Both the position numbers and the translations under genes were made by a program. Of a stretch of DNA of 33,813 nt, positions 5,160-33,813 are shown in pieces. How positions within the stretch are numbered: position 1 is the first letter of the stretch; each line of letters opens with the position of its first letter. Below the pieces are notes generated by a model. The model saw only the letters and a program-made list of their open reading frames with translations. It was not told the DNA's origin and ran no database searches. The stretch comes from Clostridia bacterium (GTDB lineage Bacteria > Bacillota > Thermoanaerobacteria > Thermoanaerobacterales > Thermoanaerobacteraceae): the NCBI GenBank assembly GCA_012840485.1, contig DULG01000087.1, positions 1-33,813 on the forward strand. Reading direction: 5' to 3'.

Positions 5160-5253
5160 ATTTGTAGGTATTTTGGGGCAATAGTTAAAAAACAAGAATG
5201 GCATAAAATTTATGAAGTAAAACTACATATTTTTTTTAAAAAAAAGAAGGAAT

Positions 5254-5281: not shown

Positions 5282-5315
5282 AGCAGAAAACAAAATGAAA
5301 AAGAGGATGCGAAAT

Positions 5316-6164: not shown

Positions 6165-6199
6165 TTCAAAGAAATAGTTCGAAGAAAGGATTGGGTTTC

Positions 6200-8209: not shown

Positions 8210-9351
8210 TGGTTAAATGCGGTATTGATGTTATAGAAAAACATGGAAAGATATTTAAAAATAAAAGAATTGGTCTAATTACAGCGCCTTCTGGAGTAAC
8301 TAAAGATTTAAAATCGACTATTGACGTATTATACGAAAATTTTAATCTTACTGCTTTGTATTCGCCTGAACATGGAGTAAGAGGTGAATTTCAAGCAGGG
8401 GAAAAAGTAAAAGAGTATGTAGATGAAAGGACGGGAATTAAGGTTTATAGCTTATACGGGGAAACTAAAAAACCGACTCCACAAATGCTTGAAAATATAG
8501 ATGTTATGGTTATTGATGTTCAGGATGTTGGATCAAGATATTACACTTATTTATACACTATGGCTTATGCTATGGAAGCTTGTAGAGAAAACGGGAAAGA
8601 ATTTGTGGTATTAGACAGGCCTAATCCTGTTGGCGGTGTAAAAGTAGAAGGCAATATGTTAGATACCAATTTTCGATCTTTTGTGGGGTGGTATCCTATC
8701 ATCCAACGCTATGGACTTACAATAGGTGAATTGGCACAACTTTTTAACACAGAATTTGGTATCAATTGTCAGCTACATATAATAAAGCTTGAAGGCTGGC
8801 AAAGGAATATGTATTATGACGAAACAGGGCTTTTATGGATCAACCCTTCACCAAATATTTCTTCTCTTGACGCTGCTATTTTATATAGTGGTACTTGCCT
8901 TTTTGAAGGCACAAACATCTCGGAAGGGAGAGGAACTACAAAACCTTTTGAAGTTATTGGAGCACCTTGGCTTGATCCTTATAAGCTTGCAGATGCAATG
9001 AATGAAAAAGGGCTTAAGGGAGTTATATTTAGACCAGTTTACTTTATTCCTTCTTTTTCAAAACATAAAAATGAGATATGTAAAGGTGTTCAAATTCACA
9101 TAAAAGATAAAAAATCTGTTGATGCTGTAGAGGTTGGTATTAGACTTTTATATGAAATAATCAAAATTAGTGGTGAAAATTTTGAATGGTTGCCTCCTTT
9201 CGGAAATAGCAAAAACTATTTTATAGATTATCTTGCCGGAACAGATGAACTAAGGCTTATGAAATATGAAGAAGATGAACTTATTGAAAAATGGAGAAAG
9301 GATAGCAAAAAGTTTGAAACGATAAAGCAGAAATACCATCTTTATCAATGA
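8209..9351 (+). CDS. namZ: Exo-beta-N-acetylmuramidase (DUF1343, GH171)
   Basis: This 380-residue protein is a clear member of the DUF1343 family, whose B. subtilis member YbbC/NamZ removes terminal MurNAc from glycan ends. Conserved blocks are SPEHGVRGEFQAG (52-64), DVQDVGSRYYTYLYTM (103-118), DRPNPVGG (136-143), NPSPN near 222 and an EGTNISEGRGTTKPFE block near 245. An upstream in-frame TTG (8194) overlaps the GGGGG ribosome binding site, so the ATG that overlaps the previous stop by one base is chosen. No signal peptide is seen, in contrast to the exported B. subtilis enzyme. The amiE-like, namZ, nagZ series contains the same three genes as the ybb cluster of B. subtilis. Confidence 0.94.
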   Translation: MVKCGIDVIEKHGKIFKNKRIGLITAPSGVTKDLKSTIDVLYENFNLTALYSPEHGVRGEFQAGEKVKEYVDERTGIKVYSLYGETKKPTPQMLENIDVMVIDVQDVGSRYYTYLYTMAYAMEACRENGKEFVVLDRPNPVGGVKVEGNMLDTNFRSFVGWYPIIQRYGLTIGELAQLFNTEFGINCQLHIIKLEGWQRNMYYDETGLLWINPSPNISSLDAAILYSGTCLFEGTNISEGRGTTKPFEVIGAPWLDPYKLADAMNEKGLKGVIFRPVYFIPSFSKHKNEICKGVQIHIKDKKSVDAVEVGIRLLYEIIKISGENFEWLPPFGNSKNYFIDYLAGTDELRLMKYEEDELIEKWRKDSKKFETIKQKYHLYQ

Positions 9352-9368
9352 AGAAAGGATTGAAAGTT

Positions 9369-10961: not shown

Positions 10962-11882
10962 ATGAAATATGTCATTGGAATTGATGGTGGCGGCACAAAA
11001 AGTGTAATTTCTATAGCAGACCTGCAAGGTAACATTATTGTTACTGAACAGGGAGGCCCTACAAACATCAGGTCTGAAGGAGAGTCTCAAGTATACAATA
11101 CTTTGAGGTATTTAATTGAAAGTACAGTAAAAAAAGCTAATTTGAAGATAGAGAAATGCGAAGCTATTTGTATTGGCACAGCAGGAGCAGGAAGAGAAGA
11201 AGAACAAAGGATCATAAAACAATATATACAAGCTATGGGAATAAAGAGAAATATTATAATAACCAATGATGCAGAAATAGTTATAGCTGAAGTAACAAAG
11301 GGGAAAGCAGGCATAGCTGTAATTGCAGGCACAGGCTCGATTGCATATGGAATAGGTAAAAATGGAGAAAAAGTGAGGATTGGTGGCTGGGGTCATATTG
11401 TCGGGGATGAAGGAAGTGCATACTACATCGGTATTGAAGCAATCAAAGCTGCTTTGAGGTGTTACGATGGGAGAGAATCTTACACGGAATTACTGCCGAT
11501 GACAATGAAAGAAATTAATATAAAAAATCCGGAAGAGTTTGTAAAGTTTGTATATAGAAAAGATATCATAAAAAGTGAAATTGCTTCACTGGCTAAAGTA
11601 GTTGATGAAGCATATAAAAAGGGAGACAAAAAGGCTAAGGAAATTCTTTTAAAGGCAGCGGAAGAACTTTTCGTTCTCGCAAAAACAGCGATAAAAGGCA
11701 TAAGAGCTGAAAAAGACAGTATAACAGTTGTTGCAAGTGGCAGTGTTTTTATAAATAACGTATTTGTCTATGAAGAATTTGTTAAATTACTTACCAAGAA
11801 ATATCCAAAGGCAACTATCGAAAAGTTAAAAGGTGATGCTTCAAGAGGGGCTGTAGCAATAGCTTTAAAGTCTATTAGATAA
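10962..11882 (+). CDS. murK: Amino-sugar kinase of the BadF/NAGK family, probable MurNAc/GlcNAc kinase
   Basis: This 306-residue ASKHA-fold kinase carries the phosphate-1 loop GIDGGGTKS (6-14), the adenosine/phosphate-2 element VIAGTGSIAYGIG and the sugar-binding block GGWGHIVGDEGSAYYIG typical of N-acetylglucosamine kinases. Within a muropeptide cluster it fits MurK, known from Clostridium acetobutylicum, which phosphorylates both MurNAc and GlcNAc at C6. It would feed MurQ with MurNAc-6-phosphate and NagA with GlcNAc-6-phosphate after NamZ and NagZ release the free sugars. Specificity between the two sugars cannot be decided from the sequence. The gene lies 15 bases after nagZ. Confidence 0.85.
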   Translation: MKYVIGIDGGGTKSVISIADLQGNIIVTEQGGPTNIRSEGESQVYNTLRYLIESTVKKANLKIEKCEAICIGTAGAGREEEQRIIKQYIQAMGIKRNIIITNDAEIVIAEVTKGKAGIAVIAGTGSIAYGIGKNGEKVRIGGWGHIVGDEGSAYYIGIEAIKAALRCYDGRESYTELLPMTMKEINIKNPEEFVKFVYRKDIIKSEIASLAKVVDEAYKKGDKKAKEILLKAAEELFVLAKTAIKGIRAEKDSITVVASGSVFINNVFVYEEFVKLLTKKYPKATIEKLKGDASRGAVAIALKSIR

Positions 11883-11911: not shown

Positions 11912-13102
11912 ATGGATAGACTCTTTAAGATTTATCATAAAGAAGAAAGATTAGTAATAGGTTTGATGTCAGGTACTTCTGCTGATGGAATTGATGCTGC
12001 TCTTGTAAAAATTGATGGGAAGGGAATACAGACAAAAGTTGAACTTTTGGAATTTGAGAATCTCTCCTACAGAAAAGAGGTCAGAAATAAAATATTTGAA
12101 CTTTTTGACCCTCAAACGAGTACCGTAGAAAAGATTTGCCATATGAATTTTCTGTTAGGGGAGTTATTTGCAGAGGCAGCTTTAAAAATTATTGAAAAAG
12201 CCCACTTGACACCAGAAAAAATTGATTTAATAGGTTCTCATGGTCAGACGATATATCATATTCCTAAATCAATTGAGGACTTGGGTTATCAAATAAAATC
12301 TACTTTGCAAATTGGTGAGCCAGCAGTTATTGCAGAAAGAACAGGTATTGTGACAGTGGCTGACTTTAGAGTAAGAGATGTAGCTGCAGGAGGAGATGGA
12401 GCTCCCTTAGTACCTTATACTGAGTATATATTATATCGTCATCCGTTAAAGACAATAACATTACAGAATATTGGCGGTATCGCAAATGTTACTATATTGC
12501 CAGCGGCATGTGACCTTGAAGACGTAATTGCTTTTGATACAGGTCCAGGCAATATGGTCATTGATGAAGTAGTAAAAAGGTTGACACAGGGACAGTTAAA
12601 GTATGACGAAGAAGGTGCCTTAGCTAGTAAAGGCAATATTAATGAAAAATTGTTAGAAGAACTTTTGAAAGATGAGTATTTTGAAAAAAAGCCTCCTAAA
12701 ACTACAGGTAGAGAATACTTTGGGAAAAATTATGTGGATAAGTTGATGGAAAGAGCTTTTCAGTTAAAAGTAGATAATTATGATTTAATTGCTACAGTAA
12801 CTGCTTTAACGGCGAAGTCTATAGTAAAAAGTTATAAAGACTTTATAATGCCTACATACCAAATTGATAAAGTAATCATTGGTGGAGGAGGAAGCTATAA
12901 TAAAACCCTTGTCAGAATGATAAAAGAAGGTTTACCAAATATTGAAGTGGTTACTCAAGAAGAGATAGGATTTAATAGTGATGCTAAGGAAGCAATAGCC
13001 TTTGCTATCCTTGCGAACGAAGCTATAAATGGCAATTTTAATAATGTACCGAGAGCAACTGGTGCTAGACATCCGGTAATAATGGGAAAGATTTGTTTAT
13101 AG
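11912..13102 (+). CDS. anmK: Anhydro-N-acetylmuramic acid kinase
   Basis: This 396-residue member of the AnmK family opens the 1,6-anhydro ring of anhydroMurNAc while phosphorylating it to MurNAc-6-phosphate. GLMSGTSADGIDAAL (18-32) is the family signature. IGSHGQTIYH, a TVADFRVRDVAAGGDGAPL block, the catalytic-region DTGPGNMVIDE and the C-terminal GGGGSYN all fit. The length is slightly above the E. coli enzyme (about 370), through a short N-terminal extension. Its product joins the MurQ pathway. The substrate is made by lytic transglycosylases, which are not encoded in this window. It starts after GGGAAGGG, 29 bases past murK. Confidence 0.95.
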   Translation: MDRLFKIYHKEERLVIGLMSGTSADGIDAALVKIDGKGIQTKVELLEFENLSYRKEVRNKIFELFDPQTSTVEKICHMNFLLGELFAEAALKIIEKAHLTPEKIDLIGSHGQTIYHIPKSIEDLGYQIKSTLQIGEPAVIAERTGIVTVADFRVRDVAAGGDGAPLVPYTEYILYRHPLKTITLQNIGGIANVTILPAACDLEDVIAFDTGPGNMVIDEVVKRLTQGQLKYDEEGALASKGNINEKLLEELLKDEYFEKKPPKTTGREYFGKNYVDKLMERAFQLKVDNYDLIATVTALTAKSIVKSYKDFIMPTYQIDKVIIGGGGSYNKTLVRMIKEGLPNIEVVTQEEIGFNSDAKEAIAFAILANEAINGNFNNVPRATGARHPVIMGKICL

Positions 13103-13115
13103 TAGGAGGTAAATT

Positions 13116-19696: not shown

Positions 19697-20494
19697 ATGA
19701 GAATAATAGTCCCAATAAAACAAGTACCTGAGACGAGCAATGTAAAAATGGATCCTGTGACAGGAACAATGATAAGAGAAGGAGTAGAAAATGTAGTAAA
19801 TCCTCTTGACCTATATGCTATTGAAACAGCGATAAGGCTAAAGGAAAAATACGGAGGAAAGATAATTGTTATATCAATGGGACCTGAAAAAGCGGTGGAG
19901 GCAATAAAAGAAGCAATTGCAATGGGATGTGATGATGGGATACTTTTATCAGATAAAAAGTTTGCAGGATCCGATACATTTGCTACTTCCTATGTTTTGG
20001 CAAAAGCTATTAAACAAACAGGAGATTTTGACCTTGTAATATGTGGAGAAAGAGCTACAGATGGAGACACAGGACAGGTGGGGCCAGGTATTGCTTCTTT
20101 TTTAGATTTACCTCTTTCCACTTTTACAAGTCAAATCCTATCAGTAGAAAATGGGAAAATTACAGTAAAAAGGCTTGTTGAAGAAGGATATGAGGAAATT
20201 GAAATGATGCTTCCAGCAGTGTTAACAGTGGTCAAGGAAATAAGCGATCCAAGGTTGCCTACTTTAAGAGGCAAATTAAAGGCAAAAAAGATGGAAATAC
20301 CTATATGGGATGCACAAAAAATAGGTGCTGAAGGACAAAAGATAGGGCTTAAAGGTTCACCTACAAGGGTTGTAAAAATATTTACACCTAAAGTGACAAG
20401 AGAAGGTGAAAAAGTCATTGTAAAAGATGAAAAAACCTTACACCAAGCAATTGATAAAATTATAGATTATCTCATTGAAAAAGAACTTATTTAA
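19697..20494 (+). CDS. etfB: Electron transfer flavoprotein beta subunit
   Basis: This 265-residue EtfB has the N-terminal IIVPIKQVPETSNVKMD, the core DLVICGERATDGDTGQVGPG and TLRGKLKAKKMEIPIW near the C-terminus. With the following etfA and FAD dehydrogenase genes it matches the order of lctBCD, the lactate dehydrogenase/ETF complex of Acetobacterium woodii, in which lactate oxidation is coupled to NAD+ by electron confurcation with reduced ferredoxin. Whether this EtfB holds FAD (bifurcating type) or AMP cannot be settled by eye. The 89-base gap before it contains no clear promoter or terminator, so it is probably the continuation of the muropeptide operon. Confidence 0.93.
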   Translation: MRIIVPIKQVPETSNVKMDPVTGTMIREGVENVVNPLDLYAIETAIRLKEKYGGKIIVISMGPEKAVEAIKEAIAMGCDDGILLSDKKFAGSDTFATSYVLAKAIKQTGDFDLVICGERATDGDTGQVGPGIASFLDLPLSTFTSQILSVENGKITVKRLVEEGYEEIEMMLPAVLTVVKEISDPRLPTLRGKLKAKKMEIPIWDAQKIGAEGQKIGLKGSPTRVVKIFTPKVTREGEKVIVKDEKTLHQAIDKIIDYLIEKELI

Positions 20495-20506
20495 GGAGGC
20501 TTCATA

Positions 20507-21511
20507 GTGAAAGAAGTATGGACTTTAGCAGAATTTCGACATGGCAAATTAAATCCCATATCATTTGAATTATTAAACAGAGGTAAAAATCTTGCTCAAA
20601 AATTAAATACATCTCTTGCTTCTGTCGTGATAGGCTATAACATAAAAAAAGAGGATATTGATGAACTTATAAAAAGAGGGGCAGATAAAGTATATGTAGT
20701 AGATGATATAAGGTTAGAAAATTTTATGGTAGAAACTTATGCAAAAGTGATTTTAAAGCTATTAGATGAATATAATCCAGATATATTTATAGCTGCTGCT
20801 ACAACAATTGGTAGAACTTTAATGCCATATATTGCGGTGAAAAAACAAACAGGCCTTACTGCTGATTGTACAGTTCTTGATATTGAAGAAGAAACAGAGA
20901 ATCTTCTGCAGACAAGGCCAGCAATCGGAGGGAATATTCTTGCTACAATAAAAACGCCCAATACAAAGCCTCAAATGGCTACAGTAAGGCCTCATTCTAC
21001 AAAACCTTCACCACCTGATAAAACAAAAAAAGGGGAAGTAATCTACAAGCAATTTGATAATGAGGCATTTAATGCTAAAACAAAATATATAAAGTTTGTA
21101 AAGGATGAGTCACAGCAAATAAACATACAGGATGCCAAAATAATAGTAGCAGGAGGAAGAGGCTTAGGAAAAGCAGAAAATTTCAAATTGATAGAGGAGT
21201 TAGCAGACCTTTTAGGTGGAGCGGTAGGGGCTTCCCGCGATGTTGTTGATAGAGGGTGGAAAACTTACCCTCATCAGATAGGGTTAAGTGGGAAGACCGT
21301 CTCACCAGCACTATATATTGCAGTTGGCATCTCTGGCGCAATCCAGCATATAGCAGGTATGCAAACTTCAGAAAATATAATAGCAATAAATAAAGATCCT
21401 GAGGCACAGATATTTAAAATTTCAAATCTTGGTATAGTTGGTGATTTACATGAAATACTGCCCCTTCTTATAGAAAGAATCAAGGAATATAAGAAAAAGG
21501 GGGCGAATTAA
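20507..21511 (+). CDS. etfA: Electron transfer flavoprotein alpha subunit
   Basis: This 334-residue EtfA has the C-terminal FAD-binding domain clearly visible: IIVAGGRGLGKAENF, GASRDVVDRGWKTYPHQIGL and GISGAIQHIAGMQTSENIIA. The N-terminus starts directly with the ETF fold (EVWTLAEFRHGKL), so there is no added ferredoxin-like iron-sulfur domain as found in some clostridial EtfA proteins. It starts at a GTG with AAGGAGG, 12 bases after etfB, and its stop immediately precedes the next start. It would form a heterodimer with EtfB that takes electrons from the downstream dehydrogenase. Confidence 0.94.
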   Translation: MKEVWTLAEFRHGKLNPISFELLNRGKNLAQKLNTSLASVVIGYNIKKEDIDELIKRGADKVYVVDDIRLENFMVETYAKVILKLLDEYNPDIFIAAATTIGRTLMPYIAVKKQTGLTADCTVLDIEEETENLLQTRPAIGGNILATIKTPNTKPQMATVRPHSTKPSPPDKTKKGEVIYKQFDNEAFNAKTKYIKFVKDESQQINIQDAKIIVAGGRGLGKAENFKLIEELADLLGGAVGASRDVVDRGWKTYPHQIGLSGKTVSPALYIAVGISGAIQHIAGMQTSENIIAINKDPEAQIFKISNLGIVGDLHEILPLLIERIKEYKKKGAN

Positions 21512-22921
21512 GTGTACAACAAATTAACTCAGGAAATCATAGACGAATTAATAAAAATAGTAGGAAGTAACAATGTAATATATAACAATTTTGAAGCATT
21601 AGAAGCCTATTCTCACGATGAAGTTGCAGAAAAACATTATGCCCATATGCCGGAAGCTGTTGTAAAACCTTCATCAGCAGAAGAAATAGCACAAATAATG
21701 AAACTGGCAAACAAATACAAAATTCCTGTTACACCCAGAGGTGCTGGAAGTGGCCTTTCTGGTGGAGCAGTACCTGTATATGGTGGTATTGTTTTATCCG
21801 TCGAAAAAATGAATAAGATTCTTGAAATAGATAAAGAAAATCTGGTAGTAGTTGTTGAGCCTGGGGTTGTGACGAATGAAATTAATAATGCTGTTAAAGA
21901 ATATGGCCTATTTTATGCAGGATATCCTATGAGTGTAGAAACCTGCTATATAGGAGGCAATGTTGCAGAAAATGCAGGTGGTGGAAGAGCAGTTAAATAT
22001 GGAGTAACTGGGAGATATGTTTTAGGATTAGAAGTGGTGACTCCAACAGGGGATATCGTACATCTTGGCGGGAAAGTGATGAAAGATGTTACTGGATATG
22101 ACCTCATTCACCTTATGGTAGGTTCTGAAGGGACACTGGGGATATTTACAAAGATATACCTTAAACTTATGCCACTTCCTCAAGCAAAAGTAGATTTGCT
22201 GGTGCTGTTTCATGATATGGATACTGCTATTAAAATAGTACCAAAAATCATGACGTTTGGAAGAATAATACCTACCTCAATAGAATTTATGGATGACTTG
22301 TCATTTAAGGCAGCATGTAGATATCTCAATGAAAAGATACCCTTTGAAGAAGCAGGAGCAATGCTTTTAATAGAACTTGACGGAAACAATAAGACAGAAT
22401 TAGAAGAGCAGTATGAAATTATAGGAAACTTGTGCATGGAAAATGGCGCAATAGAAGTATATATTGCTGATAATGCTACTACTTCAGAAAGAATATGGAG
22501 GATAAGGCGGAACATAGCAGAAGCATGGAAACAGTTTAGCCCTCATCAAAGCCTTGAAGATGTGGTTGTACCTATATCGGAAATACCAACATTCATAAAA
22601 AAGGTAAGAGAAATCTCCGAAAAATATGATATACCTATTCCCTGCTATGGACATGCAGGAGATGGCAATATACACGCAACACCAATAAAGAAGCCAGAAC
22701 TTTCTATGGAAGAATGGCATAAAAGACTAAAAGAGCTTTTAATAGACCTTTATATGATTGTAAAAGAACTTGGTGGAACAATAAGCGGTGAACATGGTAT
22801 AGGACATAAAAGAAAAGATTATTTACCACTAGTATTAGAGCCACAGCATATAGAAATGATGAGAGTAATTAAAAAAGCACTTGACCCAAATCTAATACTT
22901 AATCCAGGAAAAATAATATAA
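21512..22921 (+). CDS. glcD: FAD-linked oxidase, probable ETF-dependent D-lactate dehydrogenase
   Basis: This 469-residue GlcD/LctD-type flavoenzyme has an N-terminal FAD-binding 4 domain (VTPRGAGSGLSGGAVPVYGG, then VETCYIGGNVAENAGGGRAV and VTGYDLIHLMVGSEGTLGIF). Its C-terminal FAD-oxidase domain contains YGHAGDGNIHATPI and GTISGEHGIGHKRKDY, whose histidines bind substrate or metal in the family. Members oxidise D-2-hydroxy acids such as D-lactate or glycolate. Direct linkage to etfBA and to murQ, which releases D-lactate, makes D-lactate the best substrate guess. It starts at a GTG immediately after the etfA stop (TAAGTG), indicating translational coupling. It is the last gene before the opp promoter. 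Confidence 0.9.
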   Translation: MYNKLTQEIIDELIKIVGSNNVIYNNFEALEAYSHDEVAEKHYAHMPEAVVKPSSAEEIAQIMKLANKYKIPVTPRGAGSGLSGGAVPVYGGIVLSVEKMNKILEIDKENLVVVVEPGVVTNEINNAVKEYGLFYAGYPMSVETCYIGGNVAENAGGGRAVKYGVTGRYVLGLEVVTPTGDIVHLGGKVMKDVTGYDLIHLMVGSEGTLGIFTKIYLKLMPLPQAKVDLLVLFHDMDTAIKIVPKIMTFGRIIPTSIEFMDDLSFKAACRYLNEKIPFEEAGAMLLIELDGNNKTELEEQYEIIGNLCMENGAIEVYIADNATTSERIWRIRRNIAEAWKQFSPHQSLEDVVVPISEIPTFIKKVREISEKYDIPIPCYGHAGDGNIHATPIKKPELSMEEWHKRLKELLIDLYMIVKELGGTISGEHGIGHKRKDYLPLVLEPQHIEMMRVIKKALDPNLILNPGKII

Positions 22922-23129: not shown

Positions 23130-24149
23130 ATGCTAAAAAAGATTTTATCTAATTACTTTTTCATAAGATTAGTAAAAGCTTTAGTGACAATTTTTGTAGT
23201 GGCAACATTTACTTTCTTCTTGATTAGGCTTATGCCAGGTAATCCATTGGATATATTTATTGCGACTCAATTAGCACAAGGTGTTCCTTTGCAAGAAGCT
23301 CAAGAAAGAGCTGCCTCCTTATTTCATATTGATTTAAGTAGGCCTATGATGTTACAGTATTTAGATTATTTAAAAAATTTAGCAAGAGGAGATTTTGGAG
23401 TTTCTATTATATCTACTAATACTCCAGTAAGTAAGATAATATTGCGTTTTTTGCCTTGGACTCTATTTGTAGTTACTGTTTCTCTATTTATTAGTTTTAT
23501 CGGAGGTATATTGCTGGGTGTTGTTATGGCATTGTATAGAAATAGCTGGATAGACCAAATACTATCCTTTCTTGCTTCAATTATTTCATCAATACCCAAC
23601 TATGTAATAGCTATGTTGATAGTGGTATATTTTGGTGTAAAATTAAAATGGTTTAATATAGCTGAAATACGCGGTTCTCTGTCTCCCGGCGTTAAACCAG
23701 AATTTTCACTGTACTTTTTGAAAGATGCTTTTTACCATGCGATGCTGCCAATTATAGTGTATGTTTTAACTACGATAGGGTCATGGATGTTAGTAATGAA
23801 ATCCAGCACGATTTCTACCTTAGGAGAAGATTATGTAGAAGTTGCTAAAGCAAGAGGTATAAAAGAAAGCAGAATAATGACTAGTTATGTAGCGCGAAAT
23901 GCTATACTTCCTTTGTTTGTCTCATTAGCAATTTCTATAGGATTTGTAGTAGGAGGTTCTCCTTTAATAGAAAGTATTTTCGTTTATCAAGGGATAGGTT
24001 TAAAACTTAGTGATGCGATTACTACGAGGGATTATCCTGTAATGCAAGCTATATTTTTGATTATAACTGCTTCTGTAGTGGTAGCTAATTTTTTAGCAGA
24101 TCTTTTGTTAGGAGTATTAGATCCTCGAATTCGTACTTCAAGAAATTAG
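23130..24149 (+). CDS. Opp/Dpp-type ABC transporter permease (OppB-like)
   Basis: This 339-residue inner-membrane permease has the first membrane segment followed by FFLIRLMPGNPLDIFIA, the standard DppB/OppB beginning. It has about six transmembrane segments in total, and the EAA-type loop reads YVEVAKARGIKESRIMTSYV, which contacts the ATPase. AGGTGA lies 6 bases before the ATG. It is the first gene of a permease-permease-ATPase-ATPase-small protein-binding protein operon. The family carries peptides and, in thermophiles, also oligosaccharides, so substrate must be judged from the neighbourhood, which is peptidoglycan breakdown. Confidence 0.93.
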   Translation: MLKKILSNYFFIRLVKALVTIFVVATFTFFLIRLMPGNPLDIFIATQLAQGVPLQEAQERAASLFHIDLSRPMMLQYLDYLKNLARGDFGVSIISTNTPVSKIILRFLPWTLFVVTVSLFISFIGGILLGVVMALYRNSWIDQILSFLASIISSIPNYVIAMLIVVYFGVKLKWFNIAEIRGSLSPGVKPEFSLYFLKDAFYHAMLPIIVYVLTTIGSWMLVMKSSTISTLGEDYVEVAKARGIKESRIMTSYVARNAILPLFVSLAISIGFVVGGSPLIESIFVYQGIGLKLSDAITTRDYPVMQAIFLIITASVVVANFLADLLLGVLDPRIRTSRN

Positions 24150-24213
24150 CATTTACTTGTGCAATTAAAACATAATAAAAAATAAAAAAGTGTGGGAGAG
24201 GAAAGGTCATCAG

Positions 24214-25080
24214 ATGAAGAATATACTGATTAGCTTAAAAGATTCTCTTAAAATTATGATGAGGAATAAAGTAGGGTTTATAGGTTTTCTTGGAACGATA
24301 TTCTTTCTTTTACTAGCCTTTGTAGGGCCCTATCTTATGCCTCTTAATATGAAGGCAGATCTCAATAGCATTTATACGGGTCCGACAATAGGACATCCTC
24401 TTGGAACAGACTATCAAGGTCGAGATATATTGATGCAAATACTACATGGAGGTAGAGAAGTAATTTATGTAGCTTTAATGGCAGCTTTACTTACAATTTT
24501 AATTGCTGCCACTTTTGGAGCCCTAGCAGCAGTAGCAGGGGGGCTTATAGATACTGTATTAAATGGTTTAGCAGAAATAATTATTACGATTCCACATTTT
24601 CCATTGTTACTTGTTTTAGCTTCCCTCATTAAATTTAAATCTCCGACAGGCTTAGCTGTCATACTAGCTGCTATTGGATGGGGAGGATTGATGCGATCTA
24701 TACGTGCTCAAGTGTTATCGCTAAAAGAAAGAGATTATGTAGAAGCAGCAAGGGTTTTAGGGTTGCCAATAAGCCATATAATTTTCAGAGAAATTCTTCC
24801 TAACATGTTAAGTTACATTTCCGTACAATTTATTCTAAGTATGACTAGTGCAATTTATGCACAAGTAGGTTTAATTTTCTTAGGAGTTGTGCCTATGGAA
24901 CAACACAACTGGGGCGTAATGATTACGTTAGCGTGGAATCAGGGGGCTTTGTTCAACAGCAGAGCGCAGTGGTATCTGTTAGTTCCAATAACCATTATCG
25001 TATTATTACAATTATCATTGATCACTATGACGCGTTCAATGGAGGAACTGTTCAACCCAAGATTAAGAAGAGGAGGATAA
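24214..25080 (+). CDS. Opp/Dpp-type ABC transporter permease (OppC-like)
   Basis: This 288-residue permease partners the OppB-like protein. After a short cytoplasmic N-terminus and a first membrane segment (GFIGFLGTIFFLLLAFVGPY) comes the family motif HPLGTDYQGRDILMQILHGG. The EAA loop is YVEAARVLGLPISHIIFREI. A GTG at 24190 would add eight residues but has no spacing-correct ribosome binding site. The ATG at 24214 has AAAGG 7 bases upstream. The stop is immediately followed by the first ATPase gene. Confidence 0.93.
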   Translation: MKNILISLKDSLKIMMRNKVGFIGFLGTIFFLLLAFVGPYLMPLNMKADLNSIYTGPTIGHPLGTDYQGRDILMQILHGGREVIYVALMAALLTILIAATFGALAAVAGGLIDTVLNGLAEIIITIPHFPLLLVLASLIKFKSPTGLAVILAAIGWGGLMRSIRAQVLSLKERDYVEAARVLGLPISHIIFREILPNMLSYISVQFILSMTSAIYAQVGLIFLGVVPMEQHNWGVMITLAWNQGALFNSRAQWYLLVPITIIVLLQLSLITMTRSMEELFNPRLRRGG

Positions 25081-25081
25081 T

Positions 25082-26113
25082 ATGGCTACAAAACACATTA
25101 TTGTAGATGACTTAAGCGTAGAATATTTAGGAGCTACAAAAAAGATCTATGCTTTACAGCATGTTTCTCTTGATATAAATAGGGGAGAATCGATAGCATT
25201 GGTTGGAGAAAGCGGGTGTGGTAAATCTACTTTAGGGGTTTCGTTTATAAATTTACTACCTCTCAACAGCAGAATAACGAGCGGCACTATAAAATTTATA
25301 AGTAATTCAAAAGAAATTGACATTTTTAAAACACCTACTTCTGAATTACAAAAACTTAGATGGTCAAAAATTGTAATGATGGCACAAGGGGCTCTCAATG
25401 CTTTTAATCCAGTGATGCGTATTAGAGATCATTTTATAGATACGGCTTATTCACACGGATGGAAGAATAAAACAGAGATATTAAATAAGGCACGCTACCT
25501 TTTAAAAAGAGTTCATCTAGATAGTGAACGTGTGCTGTCATCGTTTCCTCATGAATTGTCGGGAGGAATGAGACAAAGAGTACTGCTTTCTTTAGGGTTA
25601 TTACTAAATCCTGAGGTTGTTATTTTAGATGAGCCAACAACAGCTTTAGATATATTGACACAAAGGAACATAATAGAGTTGCTTAAAGAATTAAAAAAAG
25701 AATTTAATTTTACCCTTATATTTATTACTCATGATTTAAGTTTGGCAGCGGAATTAGCAGATCGCGTAGCGGTAATGTATGCAGGAAAGGCGGTAGAAGT
25801 TGGCGATGTTTATGACATTTTTGCCACCCCTTATCATCCTTATACTGCGGGATTAATTACATCAACTCCAAAATTAAGAGGTGAAAGTACAGAGGTAACT
25901 TCTATTCCCGGTTCTCCTCCTAATTTATCCGAGATATTTAAGGGCTGTCCATTTTATGAAAGATGTCCTTTGAGAAGTAACGTATGTATAAATAGTCAGC
26001 CTAAATTAACTGCTGTAGAAGAGAAAGATGGACATTTAGTAGCTTGTCATCATGCAAGTAAAAACACTTTAGAACACATAAAACAAGGGGATTGGCTATC
26101 AACTATTCAATAA
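25082..26113 (+). CDS. Opp-type ABC transporter ATP-binding protein (OppD-like)
   Basis: This 343-residue ATPase contains Walker A GESGCGKST, an unusual Q-loop region MMAQGALNAFNPV, ABC signature LSGGMRQR, Walker B VVILDEPTTALD and the switch histidine in FITHDLS. The C-terminal oligopeptide-transport extension has the four-cysteine pattern CPFYERCPLRSNVC plus a later Cys in VACHH. It would pair with the OppF-like ATPase as a heterodimer powering import. It starts at an ATG just after AGGAGG, one base after the permease stop. Confidence 0.95.
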   Translation: MATKHIIVDDLSVEYLGATKKIYALQHVSLDINRGESIALVGESGCGKSTLGVSFINLLPLNSRITSGTIKFISNSKEIDIFKTPTSELQKLRWSKIVMMAQGALNAFNPVMRIRDHFIDTAYSHGWKNKTEILNKARYLLKRVHLDSERVLSSFPHELSGGMRQRVLLSLGLLLNPEVVILDEPTTALDILTQRNIIELLKELKKEFNFTLIFITHDLSLAAELADRVAVMYAGKAVEVGDVYDIFATPYHPYTAGLITSTPKLRGESTEVTSIPGSPPNLSEIFKGCPFYERCPLRSNVCINSQPKLTAVEEKDGHLVACHHASKNTLEHIKQGDWLSTIQ

Positions 26114-26131
26114 AATAGTGAGGGATTTAAA

Positions 26132-27145
26132 GTGGAAGAATTAATGATTGAGCTTAATAATATAACAAAGTTTTACAGAAAACGCAATAAAGTTATTAAG
26201 GTAATAAATAAGGTAGATTTAAAATTTAAGGATGATGAGATCCTTTGTTTAGTGGGAGAGTCTGGGAGTGGCAAGACCACTTTAGGGAAAATTATTGCAG
26301 GATTAATAGAACCAACAGAAGGAGAAATAAAATACAATGGCAAACTTTTGAAACAAATGGGAAGCAAAGAAGCAAAAGAAATTAGAAGGGCTATACAAAT
26401 GATCCATCAGGATCCCTTTGCTTCACTAAATCCTGTTAGAAGTGTTTATCAAACTTTGTCTACTCCTTTGCTATACTATAACATAGTGAAAGGAGAAAAG
26501 GAGACCAAAAAGAAAGTATTAGAGCTATTAGAAGTTGTTGATTTAACGCCGGCAGAAGATTTTATATACAAATATCCCCATCAACTTTCAGGTGGACAAA
26601 GGCAAAGAGTAGCAATTGCGAGAGCTTTAACTGTCAATCCAAAATTTATAGTAGCAGATGAACCAGTATCAATGGTAGATGCTTCCATTAAAGCAAGTAT
26701 AATAAATACACTAAAGCGAATCAGGAAAGAATTTAAGGTAGGATTTTTATTCATCACACACGACTTAGCTTTAGCACGCCTTTTTGGTGGGGATGGCAAA
26801 TTAGGTGTAATGTACACTGGTAGAATAGTAGAATACGGTTTTACGGATGACATCATAGGAAATCCTAAACATCCATACACTATAACTTTATTGTCAGCAG
26901 TGCCGGAACCTGATCCAGCTGTTACCCGAGCCAAAAAGAGAGTTAAGCTTAGAAGCGATGATATTCCAAGGCTTGACAGTTTACCAGATGGATGCCACTT
27001 TCATCCTCGTTGTCCTCTGTTTATAGAAGGGAAATGTGATAAGTTATTGCCAGAATTAAGAGCCATTCATTCGAGACATTATGTAGCATGTTTTGTAGAA
27101 GATGCAGAGAGAAAGATATTGGAGATGACCAGAGAAAATGATTAA
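26132..27145 (+). CDS. Opp-type ABC transporter ATP-binding protein (OppF-like)
   Basis: This 337-residue ATPase contains Walker A GESGSGKTT, Q-loop MIHQDPFASLNPV, signature LSGGQRQRVAIARAL, Walker B FIVADEPVSMVDAS and the switch FITHDLA. The C-terminal extension repeats the Cys-rich pattern (CHFHPRCPLFIEGKC, then YVACFVE). The signature is more canonical than in its OppD-like partner, whose LSGGM form hints at asymmetry between the two nucleotide sites. The start is a GTG with AGGGA 6 bases upstream. The last 8 bases overlap the following small membrane protein gene. Confidence 0.95.
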   Translation: MEELMIELNNITKFYRKRNKVIKVINKVDLKFKDDEILCLVGESGSGKTTLGKIIAGLIEPTEGEIKYNGKLLKQMGSKEAKEIRRAIQMIHQDPFASLNPVRSVYQTLSTPLLYYNIVKGEKETKKKVLELLEVVDLTPAEDFIYKYPHQLSGGQRQRVAIARALTVNPKFIVADEPVSMVDASIKASIINTLKRIRKEFKVGFLFITHDLALARLFGGDGKLGVMYTGRIVEYGFTDDIIGNPKHPYTITLLSAVPEPDPAVTRAKKRVKLRSDDIPRLDSLPDGCHFHPRCPLFIEGKCDKLLPELRAIHSRHYVACFVEDAERKILEMTREND

Positions 27146-27341
27146 AGAATTTTTAAAGCGTGCTTTACAAATAAGTTTATGGATTATTTTAGTGGCAACA
27201 GTGTTATTAATTTTTGAGGAAAGAGGTAGTGCTGAATACTTTATTACTTTGTTTAGTCTAATAATTGGAGTAATTTTCCTCTCAATTGCATTGATTGTTT
27301 ATTATGTTCACCTTAAAAGAGCTCAGAAGAATGATACTTAA
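27138..27341 (+). CDS. Small two-helix membrane protein within the opp operon, function unknown
   Basis: This 67-residue protein has two hydrophobic segments, about residues 11-27 (ISLWIILVATVLLIF) and 36-58 (ITLFSLIIGVIFLSIALIVYY), with a short acidic link and a positively charged C-terminus. The ATG overlaps the end of the OppF-like gene (ATGATTAA), which strongly suggests translational coupling and supports it as a real gene. I do not recognise a named family. Between the ATPase and binding-protein genes it could be an accessory subunit or a stabiliser of the permease, but that is a guess. Confidence 0.75.
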   Translation: MIKEFLKRALQISLWIILVATVLLIFEERGSAEYFITLFSLIIGVIFLSIALIVYYVHLKRAQKNDT

Positions 27342-27458
27342 AAATAAACGCTTTTTAAAGGGGGTGAGAGACTATTAATTAGTAAATAATAAAATTTTGA
27401 TTACAACAAGATAAGTATTAAAATTTAGGGAAAATAATAAAATGGGGGTAAGGTGTTT

Positions 27459-29315
27459 ATGAAAAAATATTGGGCGTTGCTGTTAGTAGTGGTAATGCTT
27501 TTGTCAAATGTGTTAGTTGGATGTTCTTCTCATCAAACTCAACCTGCACAAAATGCTACTTCCAAGGAAGAACAAAAGAAAGAAGTAGTTTTACATGGGG
27601 CATGGGCATATGATGTTCCACCAAAATCACACTTTAATGTATTTGTAACTGGTGCTCTTACTATGCCTGGCAGTCCTTACACTGCTTTGATGACTAGTCC
27701 GCTTGCTTTTTATCATTGGAATGACGGGTCATGGGATAAATATCTTGCTACTGATTGGAACCTAGATAAAAATAATTCAACTCTGACAATCAAATTACGT
27801 CAAGGCGTAAAATGGTCTGACGGTACTACATTTAATGTAGACGATTTAATCACTTATTTATGGATTGCTCGTGCAAAAGGGTATATGGTATGGAGATATA
27901 TAAATTCTTTTGAAAGAGTAGATGATTATACTATTAAGCTCCACGTGAATTCAATTAGCCCAGTTGTTGAGTATTATATTTTAAGAATCTCACCGCAGCC
28001 TAGGTCTGTTTATGGAGATTGGGCTAAGAAGTTTGAAGATTTATATACCACCTATAAAGATACAGTAAAGAAGTTAAACGAATTAAAAGGAGAGGAATTG
28101 AATAAATTTAAAGAAACAGCAGAATACAAAGAATTTAATAACAAACTCAAAGCTCTATTAGATGAATTTGATACTTTCCGTCCTACTGATTATGTAGCTT
28201 CTGGTCCTTTTAAGATGGATACACAAAATATTACAGAGGCTCAATTAACACTTGTAAAAAGACCGGATTCTTGGGTTGCTGATAAAGTAAAAATAGATAA
28301 GATTGTCATTTACAACGGTGAAACAGCTCAAGCAACACCGCTTGTGTTGGATAAGAAGATTGATTTTGTAACCCACGCATTCCCGCCAGCAACAGAACAG
28401 CAATTTGTTCAAATGGGATTGCGTATTATTAGATTCCCATATTATACAGGTCCTGCGATATTCTTTAATAACAATATTTATCCTTTCAATAGGACAGAAT
28501 TCAGGCAAGCTCTTGCATATGCAATTGATCGTCAACAAGCAGGAACTGTTGCTTTAGCAAAGTCAGGTATTGCAGTTAAATATATGTCTGGTATGTCAGA
28601 TAATTTGTTAAATGTATGGCTGGACAAAGATACTATAAGTAAGTTAAATCAATACGAATACAATCCTGCAAAAGCAGAAGAAATTTTAAAATCAATAGGT
28701 TTCCAAAAGAAAGATGGTCAATGGTATGATGATAAAGGAAAGAAGCTTGAATTTGAATTAATGGTACCTTCAGATTTCTTGGATTGGAGTGCAGCAGCTG
28801 ATAACGTAGCACAACAACTTACAAACTTTGGAATTAAGACTTCAATAAGAGGTGTAGTATGGAGTCAGTATACCACAGAAATGAACAAAGGCAATTTCCA
28901 GATGGGCTTCTTGCCATGGGGTTCAAGTACTCCGCATCCACAATTTGCATACATGGCAGCCCTTATAAACTATAACGGTGGTGGCAAAGGTAATAAAGAA
29001 ATGCCTGGACAGAACTTCCCACTTGTTCAAAAGTACAATGGTGAGGAAATTAACTTTGATGAGTTAATTACAGAAGTTGGTAAAGGAGATATGGAATATC
29101 AGAAGCAAATTGCCAAGAAGTTAGCTTTAGCATTTAATGAATTACTACCTGTAATACCTTTATTCGAAAGGTATTCTAATGCTCCTGTACTTGATGGAGT
29201 TAATGTAACAGGTTGGCCACCAGAAGGAGATCCTCTTTTGGCAAATGGTTCAGCTGACTCCTTCCTTGTACCGCTTGTTATGAACGGAACATTAAGAGGA
29301 GTAGATAATAAATAA
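27459..29315 (+). CDS. ABC transporter solute-binding lipoprotein, family 5 (OppA/DppA-like)
   Basis: This 618-residue lipoprotein precursor has a signal peptide ending in the lipobox LVGC (Cys22), so the mature protein is anchored at the outer face of the membrane. The SBP family 5 signature is visible as LTIKLRQGVKWSDGTTFNVDDL, and FNRTEFRQALAYAIDR is the typical mid-protein block. A charged, helix-rich insertion lies near residues 195-240. The ligand is not readable. Position next to muropeptide enzymes suggests muropeptides or amino-sugar oligosaccharides. A GTG at 27453 overlaps the AAGG ribosome binding site, so the ATG at 27459 is preferred. The operon ends at the terminator that follows. 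Confidence 0.93.
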   Translation: MKKYWALLLVVVMLLSNVLVGCSSHQTQPAQNATSKEEQKKEVVLHGAWAYDVPPKSHFNVFVTGALTMPGSPYTALMTSPLAFYHWNDGSWDKYLATDWNLDKNNSTLTIKLRQGVKWSDGTTFNVDDLITYLWIARAKGYMVWRYINSFERVDDYTIKLHVNSISPVVEYYILRISPQPRSVYGDWAKKFEDLYTTYKDTVKKLNELKGEELNKFKETAEYKEFNNKLKALLDEFDTFRPTDYVASGPFKMDTQNITEAQLTLVKRPDSWVADKVKIDKIVIYNGETAQATPLVLDKKIDFVTHAFPPATEQQFVQMGLRIIRFPYYTGPAIFFNNNIYPFNRTEFRQALAYAIDRQQAGTVALAKSGIAVKYMSGMSDNLLNVWLDKDTISKLNQYEYNPAKAEEILKSIGFQKKDGQWYDDKGKKLEFELMVPSDFLDWSAAADNVAQQLTNFGIKTSIRGVVWSQYTTEMNKGNFQMGFLPWGSSTPHPQFAYMAALINYNGGGKGNKEMPGQNFPLVQKYNGEEINFDELITEVGKGDMEYQKQIAKKLALAFNELLPVIPLFERYSNAPVLDGVNVTGWPPEGDPLLANGSADSFLVPLVMNGTLRGVDNK

Positions 29316-29427: not shown

Positions 29428-29470
29428 TAAAGTAATGGGGAAATTATAATTGATAAAGGAGCTGGTTTCT

Positions 29471-30628
29471 ATGAAAAGCCTTTTATTAAAACACGTCGAA
29501 ATATATACAGAGACAGAAATAATATACGATGGAGATTTATTAATATCTGATGGAAAAATTATAGAGGTTGGAAAGAATTTAAGTTCAAGTGAGGCAGAAG
29601 TAATTGAGCTAAATGGCAAAAAGGTGGTACCAGGTTTTATTGATATACATACGCATGCTGGTGCTGGGTATGATACAATGGATGCTACATATGAGGCATT
29701 AAATACTATTTCTATTCATCTTGCAAAGCACGGAGTTACTTCTTTTTGCCCTACTACCATGACAATGGATGTACCTTATATTTTAAATGCTCTTAAAAAT
29801 GTGAATGAGACAATGAGAAAGGGTACAGAGGGAGCACAAGTTTTAGGTGCGTATGTGGAAGGACCTTTTATAAGCAAGGAACACAAAGGAGCACAGGATG
29901 AAAGATATATTTTAGAACCAAGCATAGAGATAATGGACAAATTTATTGAGGCTTCAAGTGGTAATATAAAAGTGATAGCAGTGGCGCCTGAAAATGATAA
30001 AAATGGGGAGTTTATAGAATACGTAACTAAAAAGAACATGAAGGTATCGCTAGGACATACAAACGCTACTTATGAAGAGATGAAAAATGGAGTCGACCAT
30101 GGAGCAAATATAGCAGTCCATGCTTACAATGCCATGAAGGGTCTTCATCACAGAGAACCTGGTGCTTTAGGAGAAGTTTTTTTGGATGATAGATTGTATG
30201 GTGAATTAATATGTGATTTTATACATTCACATCCTGCAGCGGTAAAAATATTTTTAAAAATAAAAGGAATAGATAAAGTGATATTAATTTCTGATGCTAT
30301 GTCCGCCTGTGGTTTAGGGGATGGAGAGTATAGCCTTGGAGGACAAAAAGTTATTGTAGAAAAAGGTGTAGCCAGATTAGAAAATGGTTCTTTAGCAGGA
30401 AGTACTTTGACATTGGATAAAGCTGTAGCAAATATAACGACACTGGGGATACCGCTTTTTGAGGCAATTAAAATGGCTGCCACAAATCCTGCAAAAGCAA
30501 TTGGCATATATAAGAGAAAAGGTAGCATTGCTATAGGAAAAGATGCGGATATAACTATCTTAAACAATGATTTAACTGTAGATATGACAATAGTAGGTGG
30601 AAAAGTAGTATATTCTAAAAAAGAGTAG
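29471..30628 (+). CDS. nagA: N-acetylglucosamine-6-phosphate deacetylase
   Basis: This 385-residue amidohydrolase converts GlcNAc-6-phosphate to glucosamine 6-phosphate and acetate, the step after MurQ and MurK. Metal and catalytic residues are visible: His60-Thr-His62 in FIDIHTHAGAG, Glu130 in YVEGPFI, His196 in LGHTNAT, His217 in VHAYNAMKG and Asp275 in LISDAMSACGLGDG. The C-terminus carries ATNPAKAIGIYKRKGSIAIG as usual. A TTG at 29450 lies upstream of the ribosome binding site AAAGGAG (29455-29461), so the ATG 9 bases after that site is the start. The next enzyme, NagB, is not encoded in this window. Confidence 0.96.
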   Translation: MKSLLLKHVEIYTETEIIYDGDLLISDGKIIEVGKNLSSSEAEVIELNGKKVVPGFIDIHTHAGAGYDTMDATYEALNTISIHLAKHGVTSFCPTTMTMDVPYILNALKNVNETMRKGTEGAQVLGAYVEGPFISKEHKGAQDERYILEPSIEIMDKFIEASSGNIKVIAVAPENDKNGEFIEYVTKKNMKVSLGHTNATYEEMKNGVDHGANIAVHAYNAMKGLHHREPGALGEVFLDDRLYGELICDFIHSHPAAVKIFLKIKGIDKVILISDAMSACGLGDGEYSLGGQKVIVEKGVARLENGSLAGSTLTLDKAVANITTLGIPLFEAIKMAATNPAKAIGIYKRKGSIAIGKDADITILNNDLTVDMTIVGGKVVYSKKE

Positions 30629-30652: not shown

Positions 30653-31897
30653 ATGGCACGAAAAAATAATAGTATTAGAAAAGGTAGCCCTGAAGAAGTG
30701 GGTATGTCAAGTGAGATATTGAAGAGAATAGATTTGCTTGTAAGTGATGCTATTGATCAAGGTATAACTCCAGGTGTAGTAGTACTAATTTCAAAAGAAG
30801 GGGTAATAGTAAAAAATACAGCCTATGGCTATGCACAAAAATATGATATGGGTAAAGTTTTAGAGAAGCCAAAAGAAATGAAAAGTGATACAATTTTTGA
30901 TTTAGCCTCTGTGACTAAAGTAATGGCTACGACACAAGTGATAATGCAACTGATGAGTGAAGGGAAACTAAAAGTTACAGATAAGGTAGCTAAATACATT
31001 CATTCTTTTTCACAAAAGGGAAAAGGAAATATAACAATTGCTGACCTATTGACCCACACATCTGGATTGTCACCATGGAAACCTGTATATTATCACGCCA
31101 ATAATCCACGACAATCTTTAGAATATATTTGCAGTCTTCCTTTAGAATATGAAACAGGTAAAGATAGAAGATACAGTGATTTAGGTTTTATGATATTGGG
31201 CTTTGTAATAGAGGCGATAACGGGTAAGAATATTGACGAATATGCAAGGGAGAAAATATATTCTCCACTTGGTATGAAAGATACTATGTTTAATCCTTTG
31301 GACGATTCAAGAAATTTAAAAGAAAGAATAGCTGCTACTTCTTGGGGAAATCCTTTTGAGTATAAAATGATTGCTCAACCGGGATGGGTTTATTCTATAG
31401 AAGAAAAAGTAGAAGATTGGGATGGTTGGCGCCATTATACCCTTATTGGGGAAGCTAATGATGGGAACTGTTTTTATGCAAATAATGGTATTGCCGGCCA
31501 TGCAGGGTTATTTTCTACTGCTTATAACCTTGCGATTTTAGGTCAAACAATGTTAAATGGGGGAGAATATTGTGGGGTTAAATTATATGATAGTTGGATA
31601 TTGGAAGAATTCATCTCTCCCAAAAAACCTCCTTCTAATTGGAACCTTTATAAATACGGATATGGATGGGAAATAGCACGTAGTAGTTATATGGGAGATT
31701 TAATTTCAGAAAGAGCCTTTGGACATAGTGGTTTTACAGGTACACAAGTTATTTTTGACCCTACGTATAATCTTCAAATTATAGTGCTTACAAACAGACA
31801 AAACAATGGGGTTGATGAAAGTGGAAGATATTTGAGCACTTTTGAATTAAGTAGGAATATTTCTAATATAGTGTATCAATCAATGTTTTCACATTAG
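30653..31897 (+). CDS. Second AmiE-like serine hydrolase (beta-lactamase fold)
   Basis: This 414-residue protein of the class C beta-lactamase/esterase fold has SVTK at 86-89, Tyr174 in RRYSDLGF, and HSG (358-360) in GHSGFTGT. ANNGIAGHAGLFST replaces the CHDENA-GGISGHAG block of its shorter paralogue at 7139-8209. The extra length is mainly a segment near residues 225-275 rich in aromatic residues, which may shape a different substrate pocket. No signal peptide is seen. By context it is a muramyl amidase or esterase on imported fragments. A true penicillinase is unlikely because it is cytoplasmic. The start may be upstream (see the displaced ribosome binding site). Confidence 0.85.
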   Translation: MARKNNSIRKGSPEEVGMSSEILKRIDLLVSDAIDQGITPGVVVLISKEGVIVKNTAYGYAQKYDMGKVLEKPKEMKSDTIFDLASVTKVMATTQVIMQLMSEGKLKVTDKVAKYIHSFSQKGKGNITIADLLTHTSGLSPWKPVYYHANNPRQSLEYICSLPLEYETGKDRRYSDLGFMILGFVIEAITGKNIDEYAREKIYSPLGMKDTMFNPLDDSRNLKERIAATSWGNPFEYKMIAQPGWVYSIEEKVEDWDGWRHYTLIGEANDGNCFYANNGIAGHAGLFSTAYNLAILGQTMLNGGEYCGVKLYDSWILEEFISPKKPPSNWNLYKYGYGWEIARSSYMGDLISERAFGHSGFTGTQVIFDPTYNLQIIVLTNRQNNGVDESGRYLSTFELSRNISNIVYQSMFSH

Positions 31898-31930: not shown

Positions 31931-32992
31931 GTGTTTAAATTAGGGTGGCTTGTGCCTGAAAACGAAGAAAGTATCGATTCCTTCTTAAAATATGGCGAAA
32001 AACTTTCTCATGTGAGCCCTACTTGGTTATGGTTCGATTCTAATGCAAGTTTGCATGTTTCAGTTTCTGAAGAAGAGATTTACAATTTTTTAGCTTTATC
32101 TAAAGAACGAGGGTTAAAAGTTGTACCTTTAGTGGTTAATGAAAAATTTGATGCTGATGTGGCAGGTGCTATATTAGGAGAAAAAAATTCGAGAAGAAAG
32201 GCGGCTGAAGAACTTGCCCGTTTTGCAGAAAAATATCAAGTGAAGGGAATAAATTTGGATTTTGAAGGAACATTTGGATTGTGGAGAGATCACTATACTG
32301 AATTTGTAAGAGGAGTTGCAAAATTATTACATGATATAGGGATGGAAGTGTCTGTAGATGTGGTGTGTCAAACTAATCCTCCAAAGCCAATTGATGCTTT
32401 AAAGGAAAGTGAGAGTGAAGATTCTGCTAAGTGGATATTATCATGGGCAGATTCTTATGATTACAAAGGATTAGGTGAAGTGGTTGACCAGTTTATATTA
32501 ATGGGGTATGATTACCATGCAAGAGGATTAGAGCCTGGACCTGTTGGACCCTTATGGTGGTTGCGCAAAGTATTAGATTATACTTTAAATATTGTTCCAG
32601 CAGAGAAAGTAGTATTAGGTTTGCCTTTTTATGGAAGAGGATGGACTTCAAAAGAGCCAATGAAACCAGAAGAATGGACACCACGGGAAGTGGCATCTGA
32701 GTTGCCAATACGCAGTGCTTCAGAGGCTGGCTTTGAACCAGGAGATGCCTATAATTATGCACAAATTGAAAAAATGCTTGACAAATTTGTAAGACAAGGG
32801 CGCGATCCCCTTGAAGCTTCACCTTGGGGCATATGGGAATTGGAAGATGGAAGAATTAGAGTGGTTTATTATGATGACGTTGAAAGTTTAAAGGAGAAAC
32901 TTTTATTAACAAAAGAATACAATCTACTAGGAACAGCATTTTGGCGGTTAGGTCATGAGGATTTTAGAATATGGGAAGTATTGGATATATAG
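31931..32992 (+). CDS. GH18-family glycoside hydrolase, YaaH/SleL-like catalytic domain without export signal
   Basis: This 353-residue TIM-barrel protein has a GH18 catalytic motif, GINLDFEG (107-113), with Glu112 as the predicted acid and Asp110 beside it; the usual leading aspartates are replaced (Gly, Asn108). LMGYDYHARG and GLPFYGRGW are further GH18 landmarks, as in spore cortex-lytic YaaH/SleL enzymes. Unlike those it has no LysM domains, and the N-terminus (FKLGWLVPENEES) shows no signal peptide. It probably acts as an intracellular N-acetylglucosaminidase on imported muropeptides. The start is a GTG with AAGGGGGAAAG upstream, 33 bases after the previous stop. Confidence 0.85.
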   Translation: MFKLGWLVPENEESIDSFLKYGEKLSHVSPTWLWFDSNASLHVSVSEEEIYNFLALSKERGLKVVPLVVNEKFDADVAGAILGEKNSRRKAAEELARFAEKYQVKGINLDFEGTFGLWRDHYTEFVRGVAKLLHDIGMEVSVDVVCQTNPPKPIDALKESESEDSAKWILSWADSYDYKGLGEVVDQFILMGYDYHARGLEPGPVGPLWWLRKVLDYTLNIVPAEKVVLGLPFYGRGWTSKEPMKPEEWTPREVASELPIRSASEAGFEPGDAYNYAQIEKMLDKFVRQGRDPLEASPWGIWELEDGRIRVVYYDDVESLKEKLLLTKEYNLLGTAFWRLGHEDFRIWEVLDI

Positions 32993-33068: not shown

Positions 33069-33105
33069 AAAAGGGCAAAGGTAAGAAAAAACTTTTGCCT
33101 TTTTT
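33069..33105 (+). terminator. Hairpin with T-run just before mupG, terminator or attenuator
   Basis: A 13-bp stem including two G-T pairs joins 33069-33081 (AAAAGGGCAAAGG) to 33092-33104 (CTTTTGCCTTTTT) across a 10-base loop, ending in a T-run. It lies 76 bases after the GH18 stop but only 18 bases before the mupG start, leaving no room for a promoter between them. Any mupG transcript must pass through this hairpin. Confidence 0.75.
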
Positions 33106-33122
33106 AATAAGGAGATGAGGGA

Positions 33123-33813
33123 GTGGCTGTTGGAATTTCGGTTTACATTACAGAAGATTTTACACATCAAAAGAACAAGGAATATATAAAAATGGCAAAA
33201 GACAATGGGATAAATATGGTTTTTACGTCGATGCATATGCCTGAGGTTGAATATGATAAAAAATTAAATGAATTTGAAGATTTAATTAAATATATTAAAT
33301 TACTAGATATGAAATTAACTATTGATATTTCGCCTGTAACAATGAATATATTAAATTCCTCAATAACAGATTTGAAGTCCTTTTATGATTTAGGAGTAGA
33401 TTGTTTAAGGCTTGACTATGGTTTTACTGTAGAGGAAATAGCTGAAATGACAAATAACAAATATGGAATTAAAATAGAGTTAAATGCCAGTACAATAACA
33501 AAAGAAGAAATAGAGAAATCGATAAAGTTAAAGGGCAATCTAGATAATTTGACAACTTGCCACAATTATTATCCTAAACCGTATACAGGTCTTTCTTATA
33601 AGTTTTTTAAAGAAAAGACAATGATGATAAAAAATTACGGACTTAAGGTAGCGGCATTTATTCCTTCTTTGGAAAATAGGAGAGGACCAATATATGAGGG
33701 ATTGCCGACGCTTGAAATGCATAGAAACATAAAACCTTACACAGCAGCGAGACATTTAATTTATTCTGGGTTGATAGATGACATATATTTTGGGGATGCA
33801 TATGCATCTATAA
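33123..33813 (+). CDS. mupG: 6-phospho-N-acetylmuramidase (DUF871), N-terminal 230 residues, runs off the window
   Basis: The frame opens with GTG at 33123 (AAGGAG 8 bases upstream) and is still open at the last base, so about 230 of roughly 360 residues are seen. VGISVYITEDF, TLTIDISP-like LTIDISPVT, the LDYGFT block, ELNAST, CHNYYPKPYTGLS, AFIPSLENRRGPIYEGLPT and IDDIYFGDAYAS are the successive landmarks of the DUF871 family. Its S. aureus member MupG splits MurNAc-6-phosphate-GlcNAc into MurNAc-6-phosphate and GlcNAc in the cytoplasm. That product feeds MurQ. The final TAA of the window is out of frame. Confidence 0.92.
   Translation, partial: MAVGISVYITEDFTHQKNKEYIKMAKDNGINMVFTSMHMPEVEYDKKLNEFEDLIKYIKLLDMKLTIDISPVTMNILNSSITDLKSFYDLGVDCLRLDYGFTVEEIAEMTNNKYGIKIELNASTITKEEIEKSIKLKGNLDNLTTCHNYYPKPYTGLSYKFFKEKTMMIKNYGLKVAAFIPSLENRRGPIYEGLPTLEMHRNIKPYTAARHLIYSGLIDDIYFGDAYASI

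Follow-up and report, generated by a model that had tools for sequence, protein, structure and literature searches.

A mupG gene without its MurP partner in a Thermoanaerobacteraceae genome, probably orphaned by operon break-up

The stretch of DNA analysed here (the window, 33,813 nucleotides, which is the whole of contig C75) ends inside a gene for MupG, the hydrolase of MurNAc-6P-GlcNAc, and raises the question of how this enzyme would obtain its substrate where the partner phosphotransferase system (PTS), MurP, is not in sight. The initial annotation offered two answers, namely a PTS gene following mupG beyond the window or a kinase phosphorylating the disaccharide in the cytoplasm. The absence of the partner PTS stood up to the searches described below, whereas the downstream PTS gene did not, and a third reading, deletion of the operon around mupG, fits best.

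The mupG gene across a contig break

The features at the right end of the window are as follows:
33069..33104, + strand: stem-loop with a U-tract, terminator-like (z -4.2), directly 5' of the mupG ribosome-binding site
33092..33813, + strand: segment homologous to sister genomes, starting about 30 bases before mupG and ending 2 bases past its stop on contig C85
33123..33813, + strand: mupG, first 230 of 361 codons (MupG_N / GH170), open at the window end, with the remainder at C85:1-522

The open reading frame at the edge, which had been read as mupG, matches MupG_N (PF19200, E 1.7e-82), and searching the genome with both MupG domains placed the remainder, with MupG_C, at the beginning of C85. 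The last 127 bases of C75 are exactly the first 127 bases of C85 and occur at only those two places in the genome; breaks in a k-mer assembly leave exact overlaps of this kind at contig ends. Joined, the two parts encode a full-length protein of 361 residues with both MupG_N and MupG_C. Since a single alignment of ~1.1 kb to sister genomes (92-95%) crosses the join, we regard the connection through the 127-base overlap as well supported though not proven. A plasmid search returned only distant homologues (<60%). The stem-loop in front of the gene was absent from the list produced by a simple terminator scan, because its A-U rich stem exceeds the limits of the scan. In G008 (L021), a sister genome, a comparable terminator-like stem of different sequence separates mupG from murP.

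PTS genes of this genome and mupG operons of its relatives

No PTS gene lies within the window, as the initial annotation had remarked, and reading on past position 33,813 refuted its proposal of one beyond, with no PTS gene found across the first 16 kb of C85. The mupG gene is followed by a short repeated sequence, described below, and then by a yhf operon. The start of yhfZ, whose product passes the NCBIfam yhfZ model, is ~205 bases past the mupG stop; genes for a PRD protein, YhfU-, YhfT-, YhfS- and YhfX-like proteins and a phosphopentomutase-like protein come next, the middle names (YhfU to YhfX-like) being assumed from gene order and from the E. coli yhf operon. The sole Glc-type EIIB in the genome is that of a NagE-like protein on C87, which scores above the curated cut-off for GlcNAc-specific EIIBC. 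Two further EIIC proteins are encoded, one on C32 with EIIB, EIIA, YdjC and GH4 partners, as in a chitobiose-type operon, and one on C22 fused to EIIB. A MurP query against the genome gave only a 75-residue match, to the EIIB domain of NagE, and on the EIIB, EIIC and MurP searches together we reject a MurP elsewhere in the genome.

MupG_N was found in 15 of 24 genomes of the order. The closest MupG relatives (91-95% identical) are those of Caldanaerobacter subterraneus DSM 13054 (G010), Thermoanaerobacter sp. A7A (G008) and T. thermocopriae (G011), where mupG directly follows the gene for a 457-residue EIIBC; the Thermoanaerobacterium copies of the same clade are, with one exception, preceded by such a gene too. 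This EIIBC scores below the curated NCBIfam cut-offs for both the MurNAc and the sucrose models, so we call it MurP-type, MurP being its closest counterpart by context. Where the contigs of the relatives reach far enough, the order is murR-EIIA-EIIBC-mupG-murQ, followed in G008 and G010 by yhf. Because the outgroup Thermoanaerobacterium carries the same order, we consider the murR-EIIA-murP-mupG-murQ operon ancestral. Orthologous mupG genes of the Thermoanaerobacter/Thermoanaerobacterium operons (L016, L020, L021, L022 and L023) are 72-95% identical to that of the window, which shares the yhf flank with L020 and L021. Unlike the window, all five operons keep the MurP-type EIIBC gene directly 5' and murQ directly 3' of mupG. 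Here no MurP-type EIIBC gene adjoins mupG, and no murQ is linked to it, another murQ of the window being 26 kb away. In a tree, the window MupG is nested among MurP-linked copies and groups with those of G008 and G011.

The S. aureus mupG-murQ-murP-murR operon (PMC6262408) shares the enzyme family, with both Pfam domains, and its functions are those of the ancestral operon of this lineage; in contrast to it, the present locus has lost murP, the linked murQ and murR, and an ABC importer/kinase cluster is present instead. Among 398 sampled genomes of the phylum, 44 have a MupG homologue, and in ~30 of these a comparison of coordinates by hand placed a MurP homologue within ~2 kb of it. The remaining MupG homologues examined belong mostly to a second GH170 clade beside a lactose/cellobiose-type PTS, or are distant paralogues without a PTS neighbour. 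Operons at L046:4192-9130 (G263) and L048:1541-9153 (G286) hold murQ, mupG, a gene for a MurK-like kinase and murR, in L046 also anmK, beside a lactose/cellobiose-type PTS. As these kinase-mupG operons sit beside a PTS, their arrangement suggests that GlcNAc set free by MupG may be the substrate of the kinase; in S. aureus, the fate of this GlcNAc is not assigned to a step (PMC6262408).

Deletion scars and the state of mupG

Both sides of mupG carry traces of rearrangement. To its left, a GH18 gene adjoins, and murR, EIIA and murP are all missing. On the right, homology with G008 and G010 is lost after the mupG stop and returns close to the yhfZ promoter, with murQ missing in between. The place of murQ is taken by a 106-base multicopy sequence (L007:535-640, contig C85), copies of which (L062-L068, L070-L073 and L082) are present in this genome at nine or ten positions and also in other members of the genus; one copy in G004 is near or adjoining a UPF0236 transposase gene. 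All sites examined have a TTGA -35 box that begins 16-18 bases past the end of the 106 bases. A target preference of this kind, upstream of promoters, is documented for ISLre2 and TnGBS elements (PMC3942029). Given this spacing and the link to the transposase, the 106 bases are very likely the end of an ISLre2-type insertion sequence that landed upstream of the yhfZ promoter. No remnants of murP or murQ beyond chance matches were found at the scars.

Decay of mupG was considered and rejected: the gene has no stop and has lost no conserved residue, and all 34 near-invariant columns of the family are kept (34/34). On the branch leading to this genome (G000), mupG accumulated 14 nonsynonymous against 18 synonymous changes, far fewer nonsynonymous ones than the neutral expectation of about four fifths (p ~1e-6), and the ratio does not differ between this branch and that of G008 (p 0.49). 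Three unique substitutions (L133S, T268I and S280L) fall on positions that are invariant elsewhere, too small a number to build an argument on. Because of this purifying selection and the conserved residues, we infer that the enzyme has been functional for most of the branch to this genome, and MupG is probably still an intact, active hydrolase of MurNAc-6P-GlcNAc here.

The PTS-free route and the supply of MupG

The presence of an Opp importer, MurK, AnmK and NamZ in the window, listed in the initial annotation, was borne out by open reading frames and domain matches. The genes of the PTS-free wall-sugar route and their neighbours are as follows:
5136..6164, + strand: RpiR-type regulator, MurR-like, of the NamZ-type cluster
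6191..7108, + strand: MurQ of the NamZ-type cluster, 84% to the copy in the NamZ cluster of G010 and ~71-74% to mupG-linked copies
8194..9351, + strand: NamZ exo-N-acetylmuramidase (domain match), without an evident signal peptide
9348..10946, + strand: NagZ-type GH3 beta-N-acetylhexosaminidase (domain match), without an evident signal peptide
10962..11882, + strand: MurK, MurNAc/GlcNAc kinase (domain match, similarity to 8zo3)
11912..13102, + strand: AnmK, anhydro-MurNAc kinase (domain match)
19697..22921, + strand: EtfB, EtfA and an FAD lactate-dehydrogenase-like protein, inside the wall-sugar cluster and also beside the cluster in G005 (L033)
23130..29315, + strand: OppB, C, D, F and OppA, ABC importer (domain match for OppA only), absent at the corresponding place in G005
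29450..30628, + strand: NagA-like amidohydrolase, GlcNAc-6P deacetylase by context
30653..31897, + strand: beta-lactamase-fold serine hydrolase (domain match)
31931..32992, + strand: GH18 glycosidase with no signal peptide evident, occupying the position of murP to the left of mupG

The gene set of a non-PTS route (Opp, NamZ, NagZ, MurK, AnmK, MurQ and NagA) is thus complete in the window, and the parallel, unphosphorylated NamZ route proposed earlier is plausible. The best solved relative of MurK is the MurNAc/GlcNAc kinase 8zo3 (E 4e-73), and the absence of signal peptides in NagZ and NamZ was judged by reading the N-termini. The Opp importer is a candidate entry for cell-wall fragments; EtfBA and the FAD lactate-dehydrogenase-like protein possibly form an electron-transferring system oxidising the D-lactate from MurQ. 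The MurK/NamZ/NagZ/AnmK cluster of G005 (L032-L033) is a close parallel, with the block from NagZ to GlcD (window 9348-22921) 91-100% identical, but G005 has neither mupG nor murP and lacks Opp genes at that place. With mupG and yhf closest to G008, two lineages seem to be combined in the window locus as in a mosaic. G010 has a MurP operon alongside a NamZ-type cluster that includes another murQ, and the mupG-linked murQ is frameshifted there, as would be expected of a copy made dispensable by the other; alternatively, the frameshift may be a sequencing error.

We consider it probable that mupG is an ordinary GH170 gene for a MurNAc-6P-GlcNAc hydrolase, orphaned by operon break-up and route replacement. 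Break-up of the ancestral MurP operon would account for the missing partner PTS. In an ancestor of this Thermoanaerobacter-group genome, murR-EIIA-murP-mupG-murQ would have preceded the yhf operon. The left side would have lost murR, EIIA and murP, and the block of NagA and GH18 genes would have come to adjoin mupG; on the right, an ISLre2-type element would have inserted ahead of the yhfZ promoter, and murQ and most of the element would then have been deleted, leaving its last 106 bases. Wall sugar would now most likely be imported by Opp, split by NagZ and NamZ, phosphorylated by MurK and AnmK and passed on to MurQ and NagA. MupG, left without a dedicated supplier, may idle or tidy up MurNAc-6P-GlcNAc arising from a side activity of MurK or of another PTS. 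Several points speak against this reading: selection on mupG does not differ from that on its MurP-linked sisters, whereas a mere relic should decay, and the gene may thus earn its keep; both deletions end at the edges of mupG and leave it whole, which could indicate selection; and the connection of C75 to C85 depends on the 127-base overlap.

MupG would have a working role in a kinase route, in which MurNAc-GlcNAc, imported by Opp or made inside the cell by GH18, would be phosphorylated by MurK at the 6-OH of MurNAc and the product split by MupG as part of an ATP-driven branch. MurK, Opp, GH18 and MupG lie in one region, mupG is intact and constrained, the hydroxyl targeted by MurK is free in MurNAc-GlcNAc, and the G263 operon (L046) unites murQ, a MurK-like kinase gene, mupG, anmK and murR. 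We nevertheless think such a route unlikely: no report of disaccharide kinase activity was found, and the MurK paper makes no mention of disaccharides (PMC10465942); the kinase-mupG operons L046 and L048 adjoin lactose/cellobiose-type PTS genes; NamZ makes phosphorylation of the disaccharide unnecessary; and G005 has the NamZ-NagZ-MurK-AnmK cluster without mupG. It is likewise improbable that MupG owes its retention after the loss of MurP to cytoplasmic phosphorylation of imported MurNAc-GlcNAc by MurK, which would be an ATP-driven, PTS-free route to MurNAc-6P-GlcNAc. Supply in trans, with the chitobiose-type EIIABC (C32) or the NagE-like EIIBC (C87) importing and phosphorylating MurNAc-GlcNAc, appears doubtful. 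It has a precedent in ChbE of L. paracasei, which shares the GH170 fold family with MupG and works with a cellobiose-type PTS (PMC12791066), and the L046 and L048 operons join mupG and murQ to a lactose/cellobiose-type EIIC, a PTS of a type that this genome has. ChbE, however, acts on chitobiose and belongs by context to another GH170 clade, while the window MupG branch groups with the MurP copies; the C32 system, equipped with a deacetylase (YdjC) and a GH4 of its own, resembles a chitobiose operon, and NagE is above the GlcNAc cut-off. That a MurP PTS is present and was missed is conceivable in a draft of 91 contigs, one of which ends inside mupG, but is very improbable given a completeness estimate of 100%, the lack of any MurP match and the assembly of both mupG flanks, which hold other genes.

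Across genomes, the association of MurP loss with NamZ (p 0.045, kinship uncorrected) is only suggestive. One other genome, G019 (L026:9177-10673), has a MupG of the same clade, on a long branch, together with a NamZ-NagZ-MurK-AnmK cluster and no MurP. As an independent second loss of MurP it was set aside: besides the long branch, a fragment of a cellobiose-type, not MurP-type, EIIC precedes mupG and other PTS genes are nearby, and it is not a clean parallel.

The locus is a clear case of pathway rewiring, not proof of a new route. With mupG probably orphaned by operon break-up, it offers a natural example of a wall-sugar pathway that would have switched from PTS import to ABC import and kinases and left one enzyme of the old route stranded intact. 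Continued supply of the stranded MupG would require that MurK or another PTS accept a disaccharide.
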